The notes under the pieces are model-generated. The model was not told the origin of the DNA. It did not search any database and saw only the letters and a program-made list of their open reading frames with translations. A DNA stretch of 64,000 bases from Natrinema saccharevitans. GTDB lineage: Archaea; Halobacteriota; Halobacteria; Halobacteriales; Natrialbaceae. Position numbers and translations under genes: made by a program. The DNA is taken from contig NZ_LWLN01000001.1 in the NCBI RefSeq assembly GCF_001953745.1, forward strand, positions 1,302,001-1,366,000. The letters run 5' to 3'. Numbering within the stretch: the stretch's first letter is position 1; every line of letters begins with the position of its first letter. This document shows positions 8,508 through 57,481 of the stretch, one piece after another.

Positions 8508-8854
8508 CGGCGCTCGAGACGTCTCGTGTCGTTTCGTGGGCGCTCCCACCGTCGATCGCGCTCCGATCACCACACAACCCTTTCTCATTTGTTGGGTTCT
8601 GTCGTGTATTTCCGAGCTTTCAGGATTTTTCAATCGGTGGGGATTCGAATACGCCCCACATACGTTCGCCTTCCGTGACGTTTATGCTGTCTCCGCCCCG
8701 TCCCTCTCGTAAGCGAGTATCCGGTTTCTGGATACCGACGCACGTGTCTCTCGATGCCCGTTGCCCGGGTGAGTATCCCGAAACGATGGGTTCGGACTCG
8801 ATGCCGGGCCCGTTCGAGGGGCCAAACGCCCACATCACCGCAACTCAGTAACCA
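8508..8854. other. Intergenic region before the permease
   Basis: 347 bp without a gene. It holds a short perfect stem-loop at 8717-8735 (GTATCC, 7-base loop, GGATAC) and a weaker AACCC/GGGTT hairpin near 8574-8596 that could end the regulator transcript. No RNA gene is recognised. Confidence 0.4.
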
Positions 8855-11062
8855 ATGACGAAAGACCTCGAGCGAGACCTCGGACTGGCCTCGGTAATGG
8901 CTATCAGTATCGGCGCGATGATCGGAAGCGGGATCTTCATCCTGCCTGCGTTGGCGATCGAAATCGCCGGTCCGGGCGTCGTGATCGCGTACCTGCTCGC
9001 GGGGCTGTTGGTCGTCCCCGCGGCGCTGAGCAAGTCCGAGATGGCGACGGCGATGCCAGAGGCCGGCGGGACCTACATTTATATCGAGCGGGGGATGGGG
9101 CCGTTGCTCGGCACCGTCGCCGGCGTCGGCACGTGGTTCTCGCTGGCGTTCAAGGGTGCGCTGGCGCTGGTCGGCGGCGTCCCCTATCTCGTTCTCCTGC
9201 TCGATCTGCCGGTCAAACCCGTCGCGCTGACGCTGGCGGTCGTGCTCATCGCGGTCAACGTCTTCGGGGCGAAACAGACCGGCCAACTCCAGGTCGCGAT
9301 CGTCGTCGTCATGCTCGCCGCGCTGGCCTGGTTCGTCGGCGGCGGTGCGACGACGGTCGATCCCGGACAGTTCGACGGCTCCCTCGACGACGGGCTCGGC
9401 GGCCTGCTGGCCGCGACCGGGCTCGTCTTCGTCTCCTACGCCGGCGTCACCAAGGTCGCCAGCGTCGCCGAGGAGATCGAGGATCCCGGACGGAACATCC
9501 CGCTCGGCATCCTCGGCTCGCTGACGTTCACGACGATCCTCTACGTCCTCATCGTCGCGGTGATGATCGGCGTCTCCCCGCTCGAGGAACTGGCGGACTC
9601 GGCGACGCCGATGGCGGTCGCCGCCGAGGAGGCGCTGGCGTCTCCGGGCGTCATCGCCGTCGTCCTCGCGGCGATCCTCGCGCTGGTCAGCACCGCCAAC
9701 GCCGGGATCCTCTCCTCGTCGCGCTACCCGTTCGCGATGAGCCGCGACGACCTCGCGCCGCCCCGGTTCGCGACGGTCAGCGATCGGTTCGGAACGCCCA
9801 TCACCGCGATCACGCTGACCGGCGGCGTCATGCTCGCCCTGATCGCGTTCGTCCCCATCCTCGAGATCGCCAAGCTCGCGAGCGCGTTCCAGATCCTCGT
9901 GTTCGTCCTCATCAACGTCGCCGTGATCGCCTTTCGCTACGCCGACCCCGAGGAGTACGAGCCGACGTTCGAGTCGCCGCTGTATCCGGCCGTCCAGCTG
10001 TTCGGCGTCGCGAGCGGACTCGTCCTCCTCACGCAGATGGGGACCGTCGCCCTCGTTGGCGCGGCCGTCATCACCGCGGGGAGCATCGCCTGGTACGCGC
10101 TCTACGCGCGGCCCCGGATCGACCGCGCCGGGATCGCCGTCAACACGGTCCGGCGGAGTACCGGCCGCTCGGCCGTCGACCGGACCGAGGACGTCCTCGA
10201 GTCGGGGTCGGACGACGTCTTCGTGGCCCTCACCGAGGGGACCGGGCAGGCACGCGAGCGGCAACTGATCCGCATCGCCGCCGACGTCGCCCGCGAGCGC
10301 GGCGGCGGCGTCACGGTCGTTCAGTTCGACGAGGTGCCGGATCAGGTGTCGCTGGACTACGCCTCGGAGACGCAGTCGCCGGCCGACCTCCAGTTCGAGG
10401 AACAGACGGACCAGCTCTCGGCGGAGTTCGACGTGCCGATCACCTACGGCGAGATCGTCAGCCACGACACGAAACACGCGATCGTCAACTTCGCGGCCCA
10501 CGAGGGGGACGACGTCCTCCTCATGGAGCGCCAGCCCGGCGGGCTCCGCCACCAGCTGATCGGGAGCCCGGTCGAGTGGATCCTCGAACACGCGCCGTGT
10601 GACGTCGTCCTCGTCGAGGACCGCGACTTCGACGCCGTCTCGGAGGTGACGGTCCTGACCGACCGGAGCCCGTTCGATCCCTCGAAGGTCAGGATCGCCG
10701 ACGCGCTCGCGGGCGAGTTCGACGCGACGGTGCGGCTCGTCTACGCCGTCGAGTCGTCGGCCTCGGCCGATCTCAAGCGGACGGTCGAGGAGTATCAGGC
10801 GGAGTTGAGCGAGCTCTGTTCCGCGTCCGTGACGACCGAACTCGTCGAGACAGACGGCTCCGTCTCGGCACTGATCGATATCGCGCGGGACGCCGAATTC
10901 CTCGTCGTCGGCCGGTCGGGTGGGCGGCTGCGACCCGTCTTCGGAAACGACCTCGCGGACCGGCTCATCGACGCGACCGACTCGCCCGCCCTCGGCGTCC
11001 ACGCACACGAGTCCCGCCGACCCGGATTGGTCGGCCGGATCGTCGAGCGGTTCGTCTTCTGA
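8855..11062 (+). CDS. APC-superfamily amino acid permease with two UspA domains
   Basis: 735-residue fusion. Residues 1 to about 430 are an APC-type transporter: the first helix carries ISIGAMIGSGIFILP, the substrate-binding GSG motif region, and about 12 hydrophobic helices follow. The C-terminal 270 residues are two universal stress protein domains (about 455-600 and 605-735), the first ending with the GSPVEWILEHAPCDVVLVED signature and the second with LVVGRSGGRLRPVF. Permease-Usp fusions are common in haloarchaea and may couple transport to adenine-nucleotide state. The substrate is unknown. Confidence 0.9.
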   Translation: MTKDLERDLGLASVMAISIGAMIGSGIFILPALAIEIAGPGVVIAYLLAGLLVVPAALSKSEMATAMPEAGGTYIYIERGMGPLLGTVAGVGTWFSLAFKGALALVGGVPYLVLLLDLPVKPVALTLAVVLIAVNVFGAKQTGQLQVAIVVVMLAALAWFVGGGATTVDPGQFDGSLDDGLGGLLAATGLVFVSYAGVTKVASVAEEIEDPGRNIPLGILGSLTFTTILYVLIVAVMIGVSPLEELADSATPMAVAAEEALASPGVIAVVLAAILALVSTANAGILSSSRYPFAMSRDDLAPPRFATVSDRFGTPITAITLTGGVMLALIAFVPILEIAKLASAFQILVFVLINVAVIAFRYADPEEYEPTFESPLYPAVQLFGVASGLVLLTQMGTVALVGAAVITAGSIAWYALYARPRIDRAGIAVNTVRRSTGRSAVDRTEDVLESGSDDVFVALTEGTGQARERQLIRIAADVARERGGGVTVVQFDEVPDQVSLDYASETQSPADLQFEEQTDQLSAEFDVPITYGEIVSHDTKHAIVNFAAHEGDDVLLMERQPGGLRHQLIGSPVEWILEHAPCDVVLVEDRDFDAVSEVTVLTDRSPFDPSKVRIADALAGEFDATVRLVYAVESSASADLKRTVEEYQAELSELCSASVTTELVETDGSVSALIDIARDAEFLVVGRSGGRLRPVFGNDLADRLIDATDSPALGVHAHESRRPGLVGRIVERFVF

Positions 11063-48455: not shown

Positions 48456-48848
48456 GCGGCGAGTTGGCCGCCGCTGGCGACTCGAGCGTCGGAAACCCCG
48501 GGCGGGGCGGGAACCGCCCTGGGCGTGAGAGACATGAGCGTACTCGAAGCGGGGCGAGTCCACATCCGAGCGATCCGGGCACGAACGCACGCAATCGGCT
48601 GATTAGCGCGTCGCCGTTGACCGAACGCGTACCCGGCGGGGCCTTTCCTCCCCGCAGGCCGGACAATGCAGTCGGGAGTCATTGTTATGCAGTCACTTGG
48701 CCGGCGGTAGTCCCCTCGAAGCGGACGCAGGCGGTGTATAACGCCGGTGTAGCCGGCTGCTACGTGTCAGTGGTCACCTGCCACAATCGAATCTCGGCTT
48801 GCCTGCGACGGTTCCAAAGGGATGGCGCTGGACGCCGTGTCGGTCCCT
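48456..48848. other. GC-rich intergenic region
   Basis: 393 bp. It has short GC-rich complementary stretches (near 48497-48530 and 48638-48660) but no RNA family or gene is recognised. Confidence 0.4.
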
Positions 48849-50480: not shown

Positions 50481-50861
50481 TCACTCTTCCCCGTTCGTTT
50501 TTCCTGTCTCGTCGACGCCGGCGTGTGAACTGCCGATTCCGAGTTCCTCGAGGCCGTCGAAGGCCGCGTCCGAGCCGTCGTTCTCGAGTCCCGTCTCCGC
50601 ACCGTCATCCGCTGCGTTCGCGGGCGGCCCGTCGTAGTGGGTGCAGCGACCGGCGGCCGCCATCCGCCGGTGGGCGTCCCAGTCCTCGAAGAGCCCGTAC
50701 TCGTTCATCGTCTCCATGCCGGCGATCGCCGCGGTGAGCTTGATTCCGATCAGCGGAATCTCGGCGATCGAGACGATCACGTCCGCGCGAAGGATCGCCC
50801 CGTCCCGGAGCAACACGTCGAGGACGTCGACGAGGCTCTCGTCGTCCTTTCGCGGTCTCAT
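50481..50861 (-). CDS. gvpM: Gas vesicle protein GvpM
   Basis: 126-residue GvpA-family accessory protein. The core is the GvpA-like block DVLDVLLRDGAILRADVIVS followed by IAEIPLIGIKLTAAIAGMETM (about 11-50). A long acidic tail, absent from the 84-residue GvpM of Halobacterium, follows. Its ATG overlaps the gvpL stop by 4 bp. Last gene of the minus-strand operon. In known systems it helps early nucleation. Confidence 0.88.
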   Translation of the reverse strand: MRPRKDDESLVDVLDVLLRDGAILRADVIVSIAEIPLIGIKLTAAIAGMETMNEYGLFEDWDAHRRMAAAGRCTHYDGPPANAADDGAETGLENDGSDAAFDGLEELGIGSSHAGVDETGKTNGEE

Positions 50862-51802
50862 GGTTGCGGATCCGCGCGATCGCCGTCGGTTCCGTCGCCG
50901 TCGCCCCCCAGCTCGGGCGCGAACGTGTACGGCGGCCACGGCCCCGTGAACCTGACCTCGAGGCCGTCGATCGCGGCCACGTCGTCGAGGACCGAGCCGA
51001 TCGCGCCCTCGTCGTCCTCGTGGGCCAGTAGGGTGAGCCGCGCGAGGGTCTCGCCGTCGTCCGCTTTACTCTCCGACGCTCCCGCACCGCTGCCGGCCAG
51101 GTCGTCCGACAACCCCGCGCTCGGCGACCGCTCGAGGGCGTGGACTTCCCGGGCCGCCGTGGCCAGTCGCTCCCGCAGGTCGGCGGTCACCGACTCCCGG
51201 CGGGCCGCCCGGAGTTCGGTCAGCCGCTGGTCGAACTGCTTCTCGAGCAGGAAGGCGGTCCCGGCCTCGGCGTCGGCGATCCGCTCGGCGAGTTCGCGCA
51301 GGCGGTCGTCGCGATCGATCAGCGCTGCGTCGTCGACTGGGTCGATCTCGACGACCTCGACGCGGTACTCCCAGTGGCCGGCGAGTCCGTCGAGCGCCCG
51401 CTCTAAGATCGCCCGCTCCTCGCGGAGCCACTCGCGGAGGCCGTCGTCGTCGCCCCGGAGGATCGTATCGAACTGGAAGGGAACCGGCGTGCCGAAGTCC
51501 TGCCCCGCCTCGTCGACGACCGTCTGGTGGCGGACGAGCCAGCGTCGGATCTGGGCGAAATCTCCGGAGTCGTAGACCCCGTCGCAGGCATGGACGACCG
51601 CGCCGATGCCGTCCGCGACGACGACCGACACCGGCTCGCCGTCGACGCCGGTCGTCTCGAGCGCGGCGTCCTCGTCGGCCCGGACGAGACAGTAGAGGTA
51701 CCGCCCCTCGTCGATCGACGGGGCGTCGGCGGGGTCCGCGGTTCCCACCCCCTCGATCGTCTCGAGTCGGTCGGCGGGTTCCTCGAGGTCGCGTTCGCTC
51801 AC
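50858..51802 (-). CDS. gvpL: Gas vesicle protein GvpL
   Basis: 314-residue member of the GvpF/GvpL family. Features: [13 protein letters not shown] near the start, [20 protein letters not shown] in the middle, and [13 protein letters not shown] near the C-terminus. An accessory protein in vesicle nucleation. Start overlaps gvpK stop by 4 bp; stop overlaps gvpM start. Confidence 0.93.
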
Positions 51803-52143
51803 TCGGACTCACCCCCGAAAACGGAGTGGCCGGGCTGCGTCGTCGCCGTCGGCTCGCCGCGGAGCTGTTCGATCGCGTCGTTGACCAGCCCGTCCAGATC
51901 GCTCCGGAGGTCGTCGACGCCGTCCTCGATTCCCTCGTCGTCCTTGAGCCGCTCGATCTCGGCCTCGATCCTCGCGAGCTGGCCGCCCAGCCGCTCGATC
52001 TCCTCGTCGGAGAGGCTCCCCGACTCCATGCGCCGGACCGCCTCGCGCTCGAGGGCGTCGATCAGGATCTCGACGACGGCGACGACCAGGGTCACCAGCC
52101 CGTCCCGTGCGTCGTCGCCGTTGCCGACGTCGATCGCCGTCAC
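51799..52143 (-). CDS. gvpK: Gas vesicle protein GvpK
   Basis: 114 residues, the usual length. [20 protein letters not shown] and [20 protein letters not shown] are diagnostic. Accessory protein of vesicle formation. Start overlaps gvpJ stop by 4 bp. Confidence 0.94.
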
Positions 52144-52733
52144 GGGTCGTCACCCCCCGATTCGGGTTCGCCCTCCGTCTCGGGCGCGGCCGCATCGCCC
52201 TCGGTGCCCTCGTCGCTCGAGTCTGCGTCGTTGCTCGAGCCGGTATCGCCCGAGCCGTCATCATCGTCGCTTACCAGATCGAACCCGCCGCTGGTGGGCC
52301 GCTCGGGGCCGGGTCTGGCACCGGGCCGTTCGCTGACCAGTTCCTCGTCGCCGACGGCCAGTTCGCTCTCGGTCGACTCGTTTCCCCCGTCGTCGCTCGA
52401 GGAGTCCGACTCGCCGTCGGCGTCTCCCTCGGCCGTGACGTTGACGCCGCGGGTCGGATCGATCGCCGGGTTCGGCCGGTCCATCTCCGCGACCTCGGGA
52501 TCGTCGACCGCTTCGGCGACCCGGCGCATGTCGGTTCCCTCGGGGAACTCGAGGCCGTACTTCGCCGCGGTCTCGAATGAGGCGATGGCGGCCCGGACCT
52601 GCACGCCGAGCAGCTGGGTGTCGCCGATCGAGACGGCGATGTCGGCGTTGATGACGATCCCCTTGTCGAGCAACATCTCGACGACCTCGGCCAGGTCGGC
52701 CTTCTGGCGGCTGGGCTGGAAGTCATCGGGCAC
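52140..52733 (-). CDS. gvpJ: Gas vesicle protein GvpJ
   Basis: 197 residues from GTG. The GvpA-like core is [20 protein letters not shown], then [20 protein letters not shown] and [13 protein letters not shown] long acidic Ser/Asp/Glu tail follows. The GTG at 52733 is chosen because a perfect Shine-Dalgarno GGAGGTGATC lies 3 bases before it; longer starts at 52781 or 52742 are less likely. Two mini-ORFs chained by ATGA overlaps precede it. Confidence 0.88.
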
Positions 52734-52824
52734 CGCGATCACCTCCGGGGCGGCTCGCCGCGGCGCGGTCGGTCGTCGCACGCACCTCGCTGTCGGTCGG
52801 TCGTCGGAGTGGTGGGTCGGTCAT
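52723..52824 (-). CDS. 33-codon ORF ahead of gvpJ (possible leader or frameshifted gvpJ start)
   Basis: ATG at 52824 (MTDPPLRRPTDSEVRATTD, then [14 protein letters not shown], stop). It begins with MTDP like many GvpJ proteins and its stop overlaps the GvpJ reading frame. It could be the former N-terminus of gvpJ cut off by a frameshift, or a translated leader. An 8-codon ORF (52821-52847) links it to the upstream gene by overlapping ATGA units. Confidence 0.4.
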   Translation of the reverse strand: MTDPPLRRPTDSEVRATTDRAAASRPGGDRGAR

Positions 52825-52843: not shown

Positions 52844-53767
52844 TCATCGCTTGCCCTCCTGTCGTTCGGTCCGGCGCTGGCGCTCCCGCTCGAGTTCGAA
52901 CCGGCGGCCGTAGATTCGCTTGCGGGTGGGGGCCGTCGAGAGCTTCACGTCCTGTGGTACCGTCGCGTACCGGGCCCCGCCGCCGAGGTCGCGCCGGTCG
53001 ACGGGCATCGTCGAGGACGCCGTCGGGTTCCGCGAGTTCGTTCCCCTGTCCTGCCGGCGCATCTTCTCGCGGTTGCACTCGTACAGTCGCTCGAACTTCT
53101 CGTGGATCTCGAGCAAGGCGGCCCGGAAGGTGTCGATGCCCTGCATCGCCTGCTGCTGGATGGCGACCTGGTAGGCCTCCGGATCCTCGGCGACGTCGAT
53201 GTCGCCAAGCGCCTGCTTGGCCGCGAACCCGGCGTCCATGCCGGTGTCGAGGACGCCGTCCCCGTCGTCGTCGAGGAGGCCCTCGCCGTCGTCCCCGCCG
53301 TTCGCGACGTCCGAGACCGCGTCCTCGAGCAGCCCCGCGTCGTCGCCGTCCTCGAGGTCGCCGACGACGTCGTCGAGTTCGCGTTTGTTCTCCCAGAGGT
53401 CGGTCAGGTCCGCGGCGTTCCAGGCGTTCAAGAGGTCGATCGCGTCCAGCAGTGCCGTGAAATCGACGAGGTCGGTCGCGCCCGTCTCCTCGTCGATCAC
53501 TGCGTCGGGAATCTCCCCGAGTTCGATCGCCGCGAGCAGTTCGTCGCCGTCGACCGCCTCCGGCAGTTCGCTCACGTCCATCGACTCGAGCAGTTCGGCG
53601 GTCTCCTCCGCGACCCTGACGAGGGTATCGAGGTCGCCCACGACCGTCTCGAGGGTGTCGTCGTCGATCGTCTCGCTGTCCGCGAGGGTTTCCTCGAGTT
53701 GGCCGACGCTCTCGGTCGCGTCCTCGAGCAGTGCGTCGAGGCCGTCCTCGGACTCCGTCTCGTTCAT
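52844..53767 (-). CDS. Unrecognised gvp-operon protein in the gvpI position
   Basis: 307 residues between gvpH and gvpJ, the place of gvpI elsewhere. The N-terminal 130 residues are acidic and helical, with Leu/Ile repeats (TIDDDTLETVVGDLDTLVRV, LLESMDVSELPEAV). A central linker is Asp/Gly-rich. The C-terminal 100 residues are basic (AAKQALGDIDVAEDPEAY, EIHEKFERLYECNREKMRR, TRKRIYGRRFELERERQR). Known GvpI is smaller and basic, so only the tail could correspond. Its ATG overlaps the gvpH stop by 4 bp. Probably a vesicle accessory or adaptor; this is inference. Confidence 0.75.
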   Translation of the reverse strand: MNETESEDGLDALLEDATESVGQLEETLADSETIDDDTLETVVGDLDTLVRVAEETAELLESMDVSELPEAVDGDELLAAIELGEIPDAVIDEETGATDLVDFTALLDAIDLLNAWNAADLTDLWENKRELDDVVGDLEDGDDAGLLEDAVSDVANGGDDGEGLLDDDGDGVLDTGMDAGFAAKQALGDIDVAEDPEAYQVAIQQQAMQGIDTFRAALLEIHEKFERLYECNREKMRRQDRGTNSRNPTASSTMPVDRRDLGGGARYATVPQDVKLSTAPTRKRIYGRRFELERERQRRTERQEGKR

Positions 53768-54348
53768 GTCTGGCCTCCGGCGTCCCCCTCGTCGTCCGTC
53801 TTTTCGTCGCCGCCCGTCGTCTCCCGGCGGACGCGGACCGTCAGGACGCCGTTGTTGATCACTGCGTCGGAGGTTCGCTCCTCCCAGAGAACCTCGATCC
53901 GATCGAGTTCGGTCCCGTCGACGGCGACGACGAGCGTCGAGTCGTCGAACCCGACGGTGACGTCGGCCGGGTCAGCCCCGGCGACGTCCGCCGTGACGAA
54001 CAGTTCGCCCTCGTGTTCCCGGGTGGCGACGTGGTGGTCGCTCGAGGGACCCGAGGACCGAACGCGACGGTTCCGTAATCGATCGCGGGCGGCCGTCTCC
54101 TCGCCCGGCCCCTCACCGAACGAACGCCGCTCCGACGACGTGTCGCGGGTGAGATCGCCGCCGGAGCGGATCGAGATGTCGTAATCGAAGACCGCCCGGT
54201 CGCTCCGGCGACGGCCCGCGGTCGACGTCGTATCGCCCTCCAAAGACTCCAGTGCGGACAGCAGGCTCGAGAGCCAGCTGTCGTTCTCGTAGTCGCTGTC
54301 GTCGGCCGATTCGTCCCGGTCGCGGTCGTCGGGGGTGCTATCGGTCAT
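53764..54348 (-). CDS. gvpH: Gas vesicle protein GvpH (Hsp20-like)
   Basis: 194 residues. The C-terminal half is an Hsp20-like domain (HHVATREHEGELFVTADVAG, then DPADVTVGFDDSTLVVAVDG and NNGVLTVRVRR). The N-terminal half is charged and disordered. Accessory and chaperone-like in known gvp systems. Start overlaps the gvpG stop by one base (TAATG). Confidence 0.9.
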   Translation of the reverse strand: MTDSTPDDRDRDESADDSDYENDSWLSSLLSALESLEGDTTSTAGRRRSDRAVFDYDISIRSGGDLTRDTSSERRSFGEGPGEETAARDRLRNRRVRSSGPSSDHHVATREHEGELFVTADVAGADPADVTVGFDDSTLVVAVDGTELDRIEVLWEERTSDAVINNGVLTVRVRRETTGGDEKTDDEGDAGGQT

Positions 54349-54602
54349 TATCCTTTCACCTCTACGCGGCCGCTCGAGAGCCGTTCGTGAACGTCACGGG
54401 CGACCTCGAGGTCCGCCTCGAGTCGCTCCTTGCGACGCCGGTACTCGTCCTCGTCGCGCTCGCCGAGTTCGTACAGCAGTTGGTTTTCCTTGAGCTGGGC
54501 CTCGAGGGACTCGATATCGTACAGTTCATCGAGCGCGATCGAGTGGAGGGCGTTGACGATGCCGACGAGCGGTCGGAACAGGAGGTCGTCGAGGACGAAC
54601 AT
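54348..54602 (-). CDS. gvpG: Gas vesicle protein GvpG
   Basis: 84 residues, helical, MFVLDDLLFRPLVGIVNALH at the start and a charged coiled-coil rest; typical GvpG. Starts 2 bp after the gvpF stop codon. Confidence 0.92.
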   Translation of the reverse strand: MFVLDDLLFRPLVGIVNALHSIALDELYDIESLEAQLKENQLLYELGERDEDEYRRRKERLEADLEVARDVHERLSSGRVEVKG

Positions 54603-54604
54603 GG

Positions 54605-55225
54605 TTACTGGGTGCCGATCTTCACGTCGACGAAGCTGTAGGGCGCGAACGGCCCGGTGTACCGGACCATAAGTTCGTCGTGGTCGTCCTCGACGCGGGC
54701 GATCTCGTCGTCGAACGCCGCCCGGTCGTCCTCGGCGACGAGATACGAGCGGTTGTATACGAGCCGGTCGCTGAACAGGTCGTTCTCGACGGTCTGCGCG
54801 GCGATGGGATCGAGGCGCTCGCCGACCTCGGCCTCGATCGCCTCGCGGTCGACGTCGGCCCCGTCCTCGCTGACGAGTTTGAGCCCGAGTTCGACTTCGC
54901 CCTCGATGTCGCTTATCGCGCGTCGGAACGCGGGTCGCGCACCGCGCAGGACGTTCTTCAACGCCCGGTCGCTCTCGAAGGCCATGCCGAACTGCATCGG
55001 GACGACGGTCGTGCCACCGTCGTAGTCCATGATCTCGCGGAGGACCTCGTCGTGGCGCTGTGCATCCTCGTCGGTCTCCTCGGGGTCGGTGGTGTCGATG
55101 TCCGAGACGACGGCCCCGAGCCGGCGATGCGAGATGGTGTAGACCCGCTCGGCACCGGCGACGGCCTCGGTCTCGAACTCGACGGTGTCGGCTTCGACGA
55201 CGCCGTAGACGTATCGATTACTCAT
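54605..55225 (-). CDS. gvpF: Gas vesicle protein GvpF
   Basis: 206 residues of the GvpF/L family. Start MSNRYVYGVVEADTVEFE fits known GvpF; later TTVVPMQFGMAFESDRAL and MVRYTGPFAPYSFVDVKIG. First gene of the minus-strand gvp operon. Divergent from gvpA; the 212-bp gap shows no clear TATA box. Confidence 0.92.
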   Translation of the reverse strand: MSNRYVYGVVEADTVEFETEAVAGAERVYTISHRRLGAVVSDIDTTDPEETDEDAQRHDEVLREIMDYDGGTTVVPMQFGMAFESDRALKNVLRGARPAFRRAISDIEGEVELGLKLVSEDGADVDREAIEAEVGERLDPIAAQTVENDLFSDRLVYNRSYLVAEDDRAAFDDEIARVEDDHDELMVRYTGPFAPYSFVDVKIGTQ

Positions 55226-55437: not shown

Positions 55438-55722
55438 ATGGCACAGCCACAACGAAGGCCCGACTCCTCGAGTCTCGCGGAAGTACTGGACCGCGTCCTC
55501 GACAAGGGCGTCGTCATCGACGTCTGGGCGCGGATTTCGGTCGTCGGGATCGAACTCCTGACCATCGAGGCCCGCGTCGTGGTCGCCTCGGTCGACACCT
55601 TCCTGCACTACGCGGAGGAGATCGCAAAAATTGAGCAGGCCACGGCGGAGGGCGACCTCGACGAGCTGGAGGAACTCGAGGTCGAGCCCCGCCCCGAATC
55701 GTCGCCGCAGTCCGCGGAGTAG
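55438..55722 (+). CDS. gvpA: Gas vesicle structural protein GvpA
   Basis: 94 residues; the shell-forming protein. The conserved core is [20 protein letters not shown], then [20 protein letters not shown] and [11 protein letters not shown]. It is about 18 residues longer than usual, with an acidic C-terminal tail. First gene of the plus-strand set gvpA-N-O; gvpC, often present after gvpA, is absent here. Confidence 0.93.
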
Positions 55723-55728
55723 CCCGCC

Positions 55729-56113
55729 ATGGCAGACGCCACGTCGCGCAAGCGAACGGTCCGCGGCGCGAAGATCCGGGCCAGTCGCGAGCAGAAGGAC
55801 GGCCACAGAGCGAAAAAAGAGCTCGCGCGAACGGCATCGAACGTCGGCGAACGCAACGGCGACAGTCCCCTCTCCGACCCCGGGCGTCGTCCCCGACCCG
55901 TTCGTCGAGACCGAACTCGAGATCGTCGTCGGCACCCGGGCGGCGATCACCGCCGCGCAGGGGCTGACCGTCTTCGACGGCCACGACGGGGACGGCGAGC
56001 TCGACGACGAGACGCTGACCCACGTCTTCACGGACGTCCTCGCGCCGAAGGTCGCCGGCGAGGACGGCGGCGACATCGAGGCGTTGCGAACGCGAATCGG
56101 CGAGACGATCTGA
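55729..56113 (+). pseudogene. gvpN: Remnant of gvpN with deleted ATPase core and frameshift
   Basis: The start (SRKRTVRGAKIRASREQ) matches the basic N-terminus of haloarchaeal GvpN. The end, in another frame, reads VVPDPFVETELEIVVGTRAA and FTDVLAPKVAGEDGGDIEAL, matching both the start of the ATPase part (FVET) and the C-terminal part (VGTRAA...DVLAxKV). The two are fused at FVETE-LEIVV, so the Walker A/B core of roughly 220-240 residues is missing. A +1 frame change occurs before 55890. GvpN is a MoxR-type AAA+ ATPase in vesicle growth; this copy cannot hydrolyse ATP. Confidence 0.78.
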
Positions 56114-56148
56114 GCCGAGACGGAGGCGATCGACCGACCCAGATACCA

Positions 56149-56682
56149 ATGGCCGAAGCCGACACGCAATCACGAGCGCAGCGCAAGGCCCGCACGGCGG
56201 ACGGTGAGCGCTGCTCGCGACCGGCCGGCGAGGACGGCTTCTGCTACCAGCACGACGAGAGTGATCCAACAGTGAGCGACAGTCAAGCGAGTCAGGAGGA
56301 GGAACAGGGCGAGAGCAAGGAAATCGAGGAGCCCCGCTCTCGCGGAACGACCCACATGACCGCCGACGAGATGACCGACCCCGACGAGGTCGAGGCGGAG
56401 GTCGACGTCGAACAGGAGGAGATCGCGGGCATCCTCGCCGTTCGCGAGACGGTCCAGTCGACCGCGGGCCAACTCATCGGCCACGAGTTCGACGGCGTCA
56501 GCGAGATCTCGCCGACCGACGACGGCTGGCGGGCCGTCGTCGAGGTCGTCGAACGCAGAGCAGTCCCCGACACCCAGGACATCATCGGCCGCTACGAGAT
56601 CGAACTCGACCCCGGCGCGACCGTCCACGGCTACCGCCGGGTCGACCGCTACCGGCGCGGCGACACCGCCCAGTTCGAGTGA
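56149..56682 (+). CDS. gvpO: Gas vesicle protein GvpO
   Basis: 177 residues. N-terminal Cys/His region (RTADGERCSRPAGEDGFCYQ) resembles a small metal site; the conserved GvpO domain is at about 95-170 (LAVRETVQSTAGQLIGHEFD, RRAVPDTQDIIGRYEIELD, YRRVDRYRRGD). Known GvpO is needed for gvpA expression or vesicle formation. The frame is open all the way back to the gvpN start at 55729, so a read-through fusion is possible. Confidence 0.9.
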   Translation: MAEADTQSRAQRKARTADGERCSRPAGEDGFCYQHDESDPTVSDSQASQEEEQGESKEIEEPRSRGTTHMTADEMTDPDEVEAEVDVEQEEIAGILAVRETVQSTAGQLIGHEFDGVSEISPTDDGWRAVVEVVERRAVPDTQDIIGRYEIELDPGATVHGYRRVDRYRRGDTAQFE

Positions 56683-56749: not shown

Positions 56750-57481
56750 TCACAGCCGTCGTCTTCTCCGCCGCTCGTCGCGCCAGTCCGGGCGTCCGCC
56801 GTCGGCGGCGAGCCCCGGGCGATCGCCGGGGTGCGGTGACTCGCGCGGCCGGTAGTCACAGCACCGGCCGGTGTAGTAGCGCCGGGCGAGGACCATCGCG
56901 GCGTTGAAGTCCGCGGCCACGGTGTCGACGTGGCAGTTCGGATTCGCGCATCGAACGGTCGTGTTCCGTTCTCGAGTTCCGAGGACGCCGCAGGCGTGAC
57001 ACTCCTGCGTGGAGTACGCTTCGGGCACCGCCGTCACCGGGAGTCGGTACTCGGCGGCGACGGCCCGCAGCCGAAGGTGCGCCGCGGGGAGGAGCCACGC
57101 GGAGACCCGATGTGCGTCGGGGTCGGTGAGCCACGCCCAGAGGTCGGGCCGGTAGTGGCTGTCCTCGGTGACCAGAACCGGGTCGTCGTAGGCGGTCGCG
57201 TACTCGCAGACCGTCCGCCCGGCGTCGTCGAGTTCGGCGACGATGGCGTCGCGGCGCTCGCAGAGGTCGTCGCCACAGACGGCGTGCGCGCCCCGCCAGT
57301 CCGGGAGGGCGACCGGGCAGGCCGTGTAGAGGTTGTATTCGCCGACGTCGACGCCGATCGCCGTTTCCGCGCGCGGGATCACCGCGAGCGGCGTCGGCGC
57401 GTTCGGACCGCAGCGATGCGTCTGTCGCGTCGGGACTTTGAAGGTCCCGTGAACTGTCAGTAGACATGGCTTGCGTCCCAT
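56750..57481 (-). CDS. Compact TnpB-like RuvC protein (possibly domesticated)
   Basis: 243 residues with a TnpB/IS1341-type core lacking the N-terminal wedge domain. RuvC residues are retained: D45 (AIGVDVGEYNLYT), E106 (VLVTEDSHYRPD), D191 (AADFNAAMVLA). The zinc ribbon is complete: C161, C164, C178, C183. Full TnpB is about 400 residues, so this is a reduced form. No TnpA or clear ends are beside it. The true start may be a GTG near residue 34. It could be an immobile, co-opted nuclease or a decaying transposon gene. Convergent with gvpO. Confidence 0.72.
   Translation of the reverse strand: MGRKPCLLTVHGTFKVPTRQTHRCGPNAPTPLAVIPRAETAIGVDVGEYNLYTACPVALPDWRGAHAVCGDDLCERRDAIVAELDDAGRTVCEYATAYDDPVLVTEDSHYRPDLWAWLTDPDAHRVSAWLLPAAHLRLRAVAAEYRLPVTAVPEAYSTQECHACGVLGTRERNTTVRCANPNCHVDTVAADFNAAMVLARRYYTGRCCDYRPRESPHPGDRPGLAADGGRPDWRDERRRRRRL

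Follow-up and report, generated by a model that had tools for sequence, protein, structure and literature searches.

A probable gvpN pseudogene in an otherwise complete gas-vesicle cluster of Natrinema, one of several gvpN losses in haloarchaea

What can a gas-vesicle cluster still do once gvpN, the gene for the AAA+ ATPase of gas-vesicle assembly (TIGR02640), is broken? The question is raised by a haloarchaeal genome (Natrinema, 3.98 Mb, 99.99% complete, 3 contigs) in which a gvpN remnant (55729-56113) sits between intact gvpA and intact gvpO. Coordinates refer to the window, the whole 64,000-nucleotide stretch of contig 1 that was analyzed. The first-pass annotation held that gvpN had lost its ATPase core by an internal deletion of about 220-240 residues, with both ends still readable and a frame change ahead of the junction. 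Using DNA alignment against G015, N. thermotolerans (G025) and N. mahii (G012), the latter two being the closest relatives with intact gvpN, the missing part was determined to be exactly 639 bp (213 codons), slightly less than this estimate, while the remainder of the description was borne out. The following parts were distinguished:

55729..55881, plus strand: 5' part of the gvpN remnant, with the start and codons 1-51 still in the original frame and encoding the basic N-terminus; 92% identical to N. mahii GvpN residues 1-51
55880..55885, plus strand: 2-bp gvpN deletion (frameshift) upstream of the junction, from DNA alignment with five intact relatives
55912..55914, plus strand: junction of the 639-bp gvpN deletion with 3-bp microhomology CGA, from the alignment (block overlap 1-1315 / 1313-2091)
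55913..56113, plus strand: 3' part of the gvpN remnant, last 66 codons and stop in a frame different from that of the start; 80-86% identical to intact GvpN residues 276-341

The DNA of the relatives is continuous to window position 55914 and resumes at 55912 after 639 extra bases, so that the deletion spans from directly after FVET to directly before ELEIVV. Both Walker A (GPTGCGKT in relatives) and the Walker B region lie inside the 213 deleted codons. On its own, this deletion preserves the reading frame. A separate 2-bp loss at ~55880-55885 (relatives GACCCCGARGACGTC, window GACCCCGGGCGTC), located ca. 30 bases upstream of the junction, places the two gvpN ends in different frames. The start at 55729 (MADATSRKRTVRG...) and codons 1-51 are read in frame 1 and the FVETELEIVVGTRAA... 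part is read in the other frame, with the stop at 56111-56113. The likeness to gvpN is not due to chance since the flanking DNA is 91-94% identical to that of relatives with a full 341-aa gvpN. Two checks suggested in the first-pass annotation concern relatives and the rest of the genome: N. mahii and N. thermotolerans carry the full gene at this place, and no protein in the genome matches GvpN over the curated cut-off of 266.8 bits, leaving no relocated gvpN.

Compared with N. mahii and N. thermotolerans gvpN, the window copy thus occupies the same place and has protein ends 80-92% identical, but lacks the Walker motifs, is frameshifted and gives no product over the family cut-off. Position and recognizable ends identify it as gvpN, and the two lesions are disabling relative to intact orthologues; GvpN ATPase cannot be produced from this copy. 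As the alignment shows, the 639-bp deletion with its 3-bp microhomology took out the entire AAA+ ATPase core and a distinct 2-bp deletion disrupted the frame. From the window to N. mahii, the remnant ends differ by 7 synonymous and 14 nonsynonymous substitutions, compared with 6 and 7 for the same ends between N. mahii and G015. We draw no conclusion about relaxed selection from these small counts as the ends are fast-evolving already in intact genes.

One further feature was missed in the first-pass annotation. From the gvpN start, reading now continues in frame into gvpO without meeting a stop:

55729..56682, plus strand: fortuitous open frame from the ORF list (317 aa), running from the N-terminus of GvpN through Arg-rich out-of-frame sequence into GvpO

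The matching frame is also stop-free across the C-terminal stretch in six of six intact relatives checked. Openness is thus uninformative and a by-product of base composition, and a meaningful GvpN-GvpO fusion was rejected.

The remainder of the cluster is arranged with gvpM, L, K, J, I, H, G and F on the minus strand and gvpA and gvpO on the plus strand:

50481..50939, minus strand: gvpM, intact (NCBIfam halo_gas_GvpM, 123 bits)
50858..51802, minus strand: gvpL, intact (NCBIfam gas_vesic_GvpL, 386 bits)
51799..52143, minus strand: gvpK, intact (Pfam GvpK, 5.7e-25, over the Pfam cut-off)
52140..52781, minus strand: gvpJ, intact (NCBIfam halo_gas_GvpJ, 147 bits)
52844..53767, minus strand: gvpI, open (83-88% identical to relatives)
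53764..54348, minus strand: gvpH, open (82-83% identical to relatives)
54348..54602, minus strand: gvpG, intact (NCBIfam gas_vesic_GvpG, 132 bits)
54605..55225, minus strand: gvpF, intact (94-95% identical to relatives, equal length; two GvpL_GvpF matches in the genome)
55438..55722, plus strand: gvpA, intact, 94 aa (NCBIfam halo_gas_GvpA, 136 bits, cut-off 112)
56149..56682, plus strand: gvpO, intact, 177 aa (Pfam GvpO; NCBIfam GvpO_arch_Nterm)

All ten remaining genes are open and either family-positive or colinear with relatives, in agreement with the first-pass annotation, and curated NCBIfam cut-offs are exceeded by GvpA, O, G, J, L and M. Between the window and N. mahii, gvpA shows 10 synonymous and 1 nonsynonymous substitutions and gvpO 12 and 4. 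This indicates constraint between species, which neither dates the deletion nor shows that constraint lasted after it. In the window and the Natrinema relatives examined, gvpA is directly followed by gvpN (55722-55729) with no gvpC in between. A search with PF01304 (gvpC) gave zero matches in the genome and zero in the controls as well. For N. pellirubrum, Table 1 of PMC9501494 lists gvpACNO; a 2015 review describes gvpC as lacking (PMC4390858). On the other side, gvpO is adjoined by a TnpB or Cas12f1-like transposon-type ORF with a zinc-binding domain (56750-57481, minus strand), which is shorter than the 289-aa N. mahii version and looks degenerate.

Published genetics suggest what such a cluster could still achieve. 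PMC9372576 describes GvpA, F, G, J, K, L, M and O as essential in haloarchaea; GvpN is not among these eight, all of which are present and open in the window. Three sources further state that, without GvpN, haloarchaea form only tiny or small vesicles while GvpA and GvpC production is normal (PMC9372576, PMC9501494, PMC4390858). The window cluster resembles the Halobacterium salinarum p-vac cluster with an experimental gvpN deletion, which likewise has the eight essential genes and no GvpN. It differs in that the loss is natural, gvpC was not found beside gvpA, and gvpD and gvpE were not recognized in the cluster. As haloarchaeal gvpN deletions still give tiny vesicles, we consider it very probable that gvpN is a genuine pseudogene here, lying in a cluster that is otherwise complete and still competent, and that it is part of recurrent gvpN loss. 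Based on the published genetics, small bicones or no vesicles would be expected. Most likely, the strain would either retain vesicle nucleation without enlargement or live in a habitat where vesicles are not used. Two reports count against competence. In Bacillus megaterium, elongation was judged to require GvpN, and a knock-out was vesicle-free by electron microscopy (PMC11223475). Further, N. pellirubrum and other carriers of this cluster type were reported to be vesicle-negative in the laboratory, even with gvpN (PMC4390858), so the cluster may be unused in the genus.

To place the lesion in context, we surveyed 392 genomes sampled evenly from the order, with those matching both GvpF/L and GvpO defined as gvp-positive (n = 162). 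GvpN over the cut-off was absent from 69 of these (43%). The score split was clean, with true GvpN above 285 bits and the best other AAA proteins at ~80 or less, the exception being a second, partial match in G197. Scarred loci apart, 19 gvpN-less genomes were inspected at the locus level and all 19 had otherwise complete clusters without gvpN, matching gvpA, F, G, I, J, K, L, M and O; in two genomes the match for M, and in two that for L, was partial or paralogue-masked, the fetched stretch ending there. Such clusters occur in many lineages, for example Haladaptatus, Halomarina, Haloarcula amylovorans and Natronosalvus, and one genus contributes several genomes. For clusters without a scar, an ancestral lack of gvpN and the transfer of a cluster already devoid of it are possibilities on a par with loss. 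A motif scan of 23 loci revealed no recurrent substitute P-loop ATPase beside gvpN-less clusters but unrelated genes only, e.g. MutS-like ORFs.

Scars were found in several genomes. A second Natrinema (G003) carries an independent in-frame core deletion leaving a 158-aa version of gvpN, both N. hispanicum genomes (G007, G008) retain only the last ~26 gvpN codons, and in G065, from another genus, an in-frame stub of 90 aa remains. The window lesion is one of several independent gvpN losses in Natrinema and beyond, so that gvpN behaves like a growth factor that the cluster can do without. Clusters without gvpN, as in N. hispanicum, Haladaptatus, Halomarina, Haloarcula amylovorans and, among bacteria, Streptomyces coelicolor (the one such bacterial cluster in Table 1 of PMC9501494), are alike in this respect; in those the gene is gone or nearly gone whereas in the window both ends are still readable, suggesting a more recent loss. 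The opposite situation is seen in G011 (Natrinema), where two gvpN genes together with extra gvpF/L and gvpO copies make up two clusters (L062, L084); of the GvpN proteins, one has a higher score with the general model of the family.

A serious rival is that the whole cluster is being lost with gvpN as the first casualty, in a lineage no longer making gas vesicles. This is compatible with a gvpN pseudogene and differs solely over the function left to the cluster. The vesicle-negative carriers of this cluster type speak for it, as do three Natrinema genomes (G004, G013, G019) without detectable gvpF/L or gvpO, the first of which retains just a short gvpO-like stretch. We give it somewhat less than an even chance, as the ten other gvp genes of the window are all open, gvpA and gvpO change conservatively and complete gvpN-less clusters are kept in many lineages. 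The stretch in G004 (L095, ~8785-8883) resembles the end of gvpO and is possibly a scar of whole-cluster loss. The first-pass annotation had left the choice between early decay of vesicle production and vesicles made without GvpN. Here, the comparative data, namely the frequency of gvpN-less clusters and the published deletions with tiny vesicles, favor tolerance of gvpN-only loss.

Alternatively, a short GvpN combining the basic N-terminus with the C-terminal part could be functional, perhaps by binding GvpO or GvpL. A family of short GvpN proteins conserved in frame had been named beforehand as evidence against decay, and the independent versions in G003 and G065, both fully open, provide a weak counterpart. 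Core deletions in three genomes are each frame-preserving between both ends, and the C-terminal part of G003 shows a dN/dS of ~0.26 versus G005, a ratio that includes time before the deletion. However, one conserved family does not emerge, as the junctions differ between genomes and the extra 2-bp loss prevents the two parts of the window copy from being joined. The in-frame event in G003 is explained by two copies of a 9-bp repeat, found 555 bp apart at the corresponding place in intact relatives, and 125 genomes of the family yielded no other short version. A functional short form is therefore highly improbable.

Assembly quality was assessed using 35 sister-genome ORFs matching the window (some counted twice as two fetched loci overlap), of which 30 were intact. 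The other five are accounted for by gvpN, two entries of a single gene that has an upstream extension, gvpI with a slightly shorter end, and the degenerate transposon-type gene. This gives no sign of an error-rich assembly, and no frameshift comparable to that of gvpN was found among the other ~30 compared ORFs. An apparent second frameshift near 48770 was discarded since it falls in the upstream extension of a predicted ORF, a poorly conserved stretch. The region in question (48580-48840) lies upstream of a 360-aa gene, shows 86-87% identity to relatives, with small indels confined to the second half, and resembles an upstream region or untranslated leader. Although the gvpN frameshift lies in a GC-rich stretch, an assembly or sequencing artefact is hardly credible given the 3-contig genome, the otherwise frame-conserved ORFs and the clean microhomology junction with parallels in relatives.

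In conclusion, a gvpN pseudogene in a still-competent cluster best explains the locus, and Natrinema offers gvpN loss caught at several stages. Dispensability of gvpN is already known from mutants; a report of a large fraction of natural haloarchaeal clusters without it was not found in the open-licence papers searched. The absence of gvpN from 43% of the gvp-positive genomes in this sample of one archaeal order contrasts with the text of a 2022 review, which counts it as a gene that all gvp clusters have conserved (PMC9501494). We tentatively propose, aware that the odds are rather against it, that GvpN is not universal in the gas-vesicle machinery and that a large share of haloarchaea may make their vesicles from a set of proteins that excludes GvpN (A, F, G, J, K, L, M, O and usually I), reached by repeated loss, which would grow without the ATPase or stay small bicones. 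The gvpN-less strains represent natural gvpN deletions, bearing on whether the ATPase is optional for useful buoyancy.
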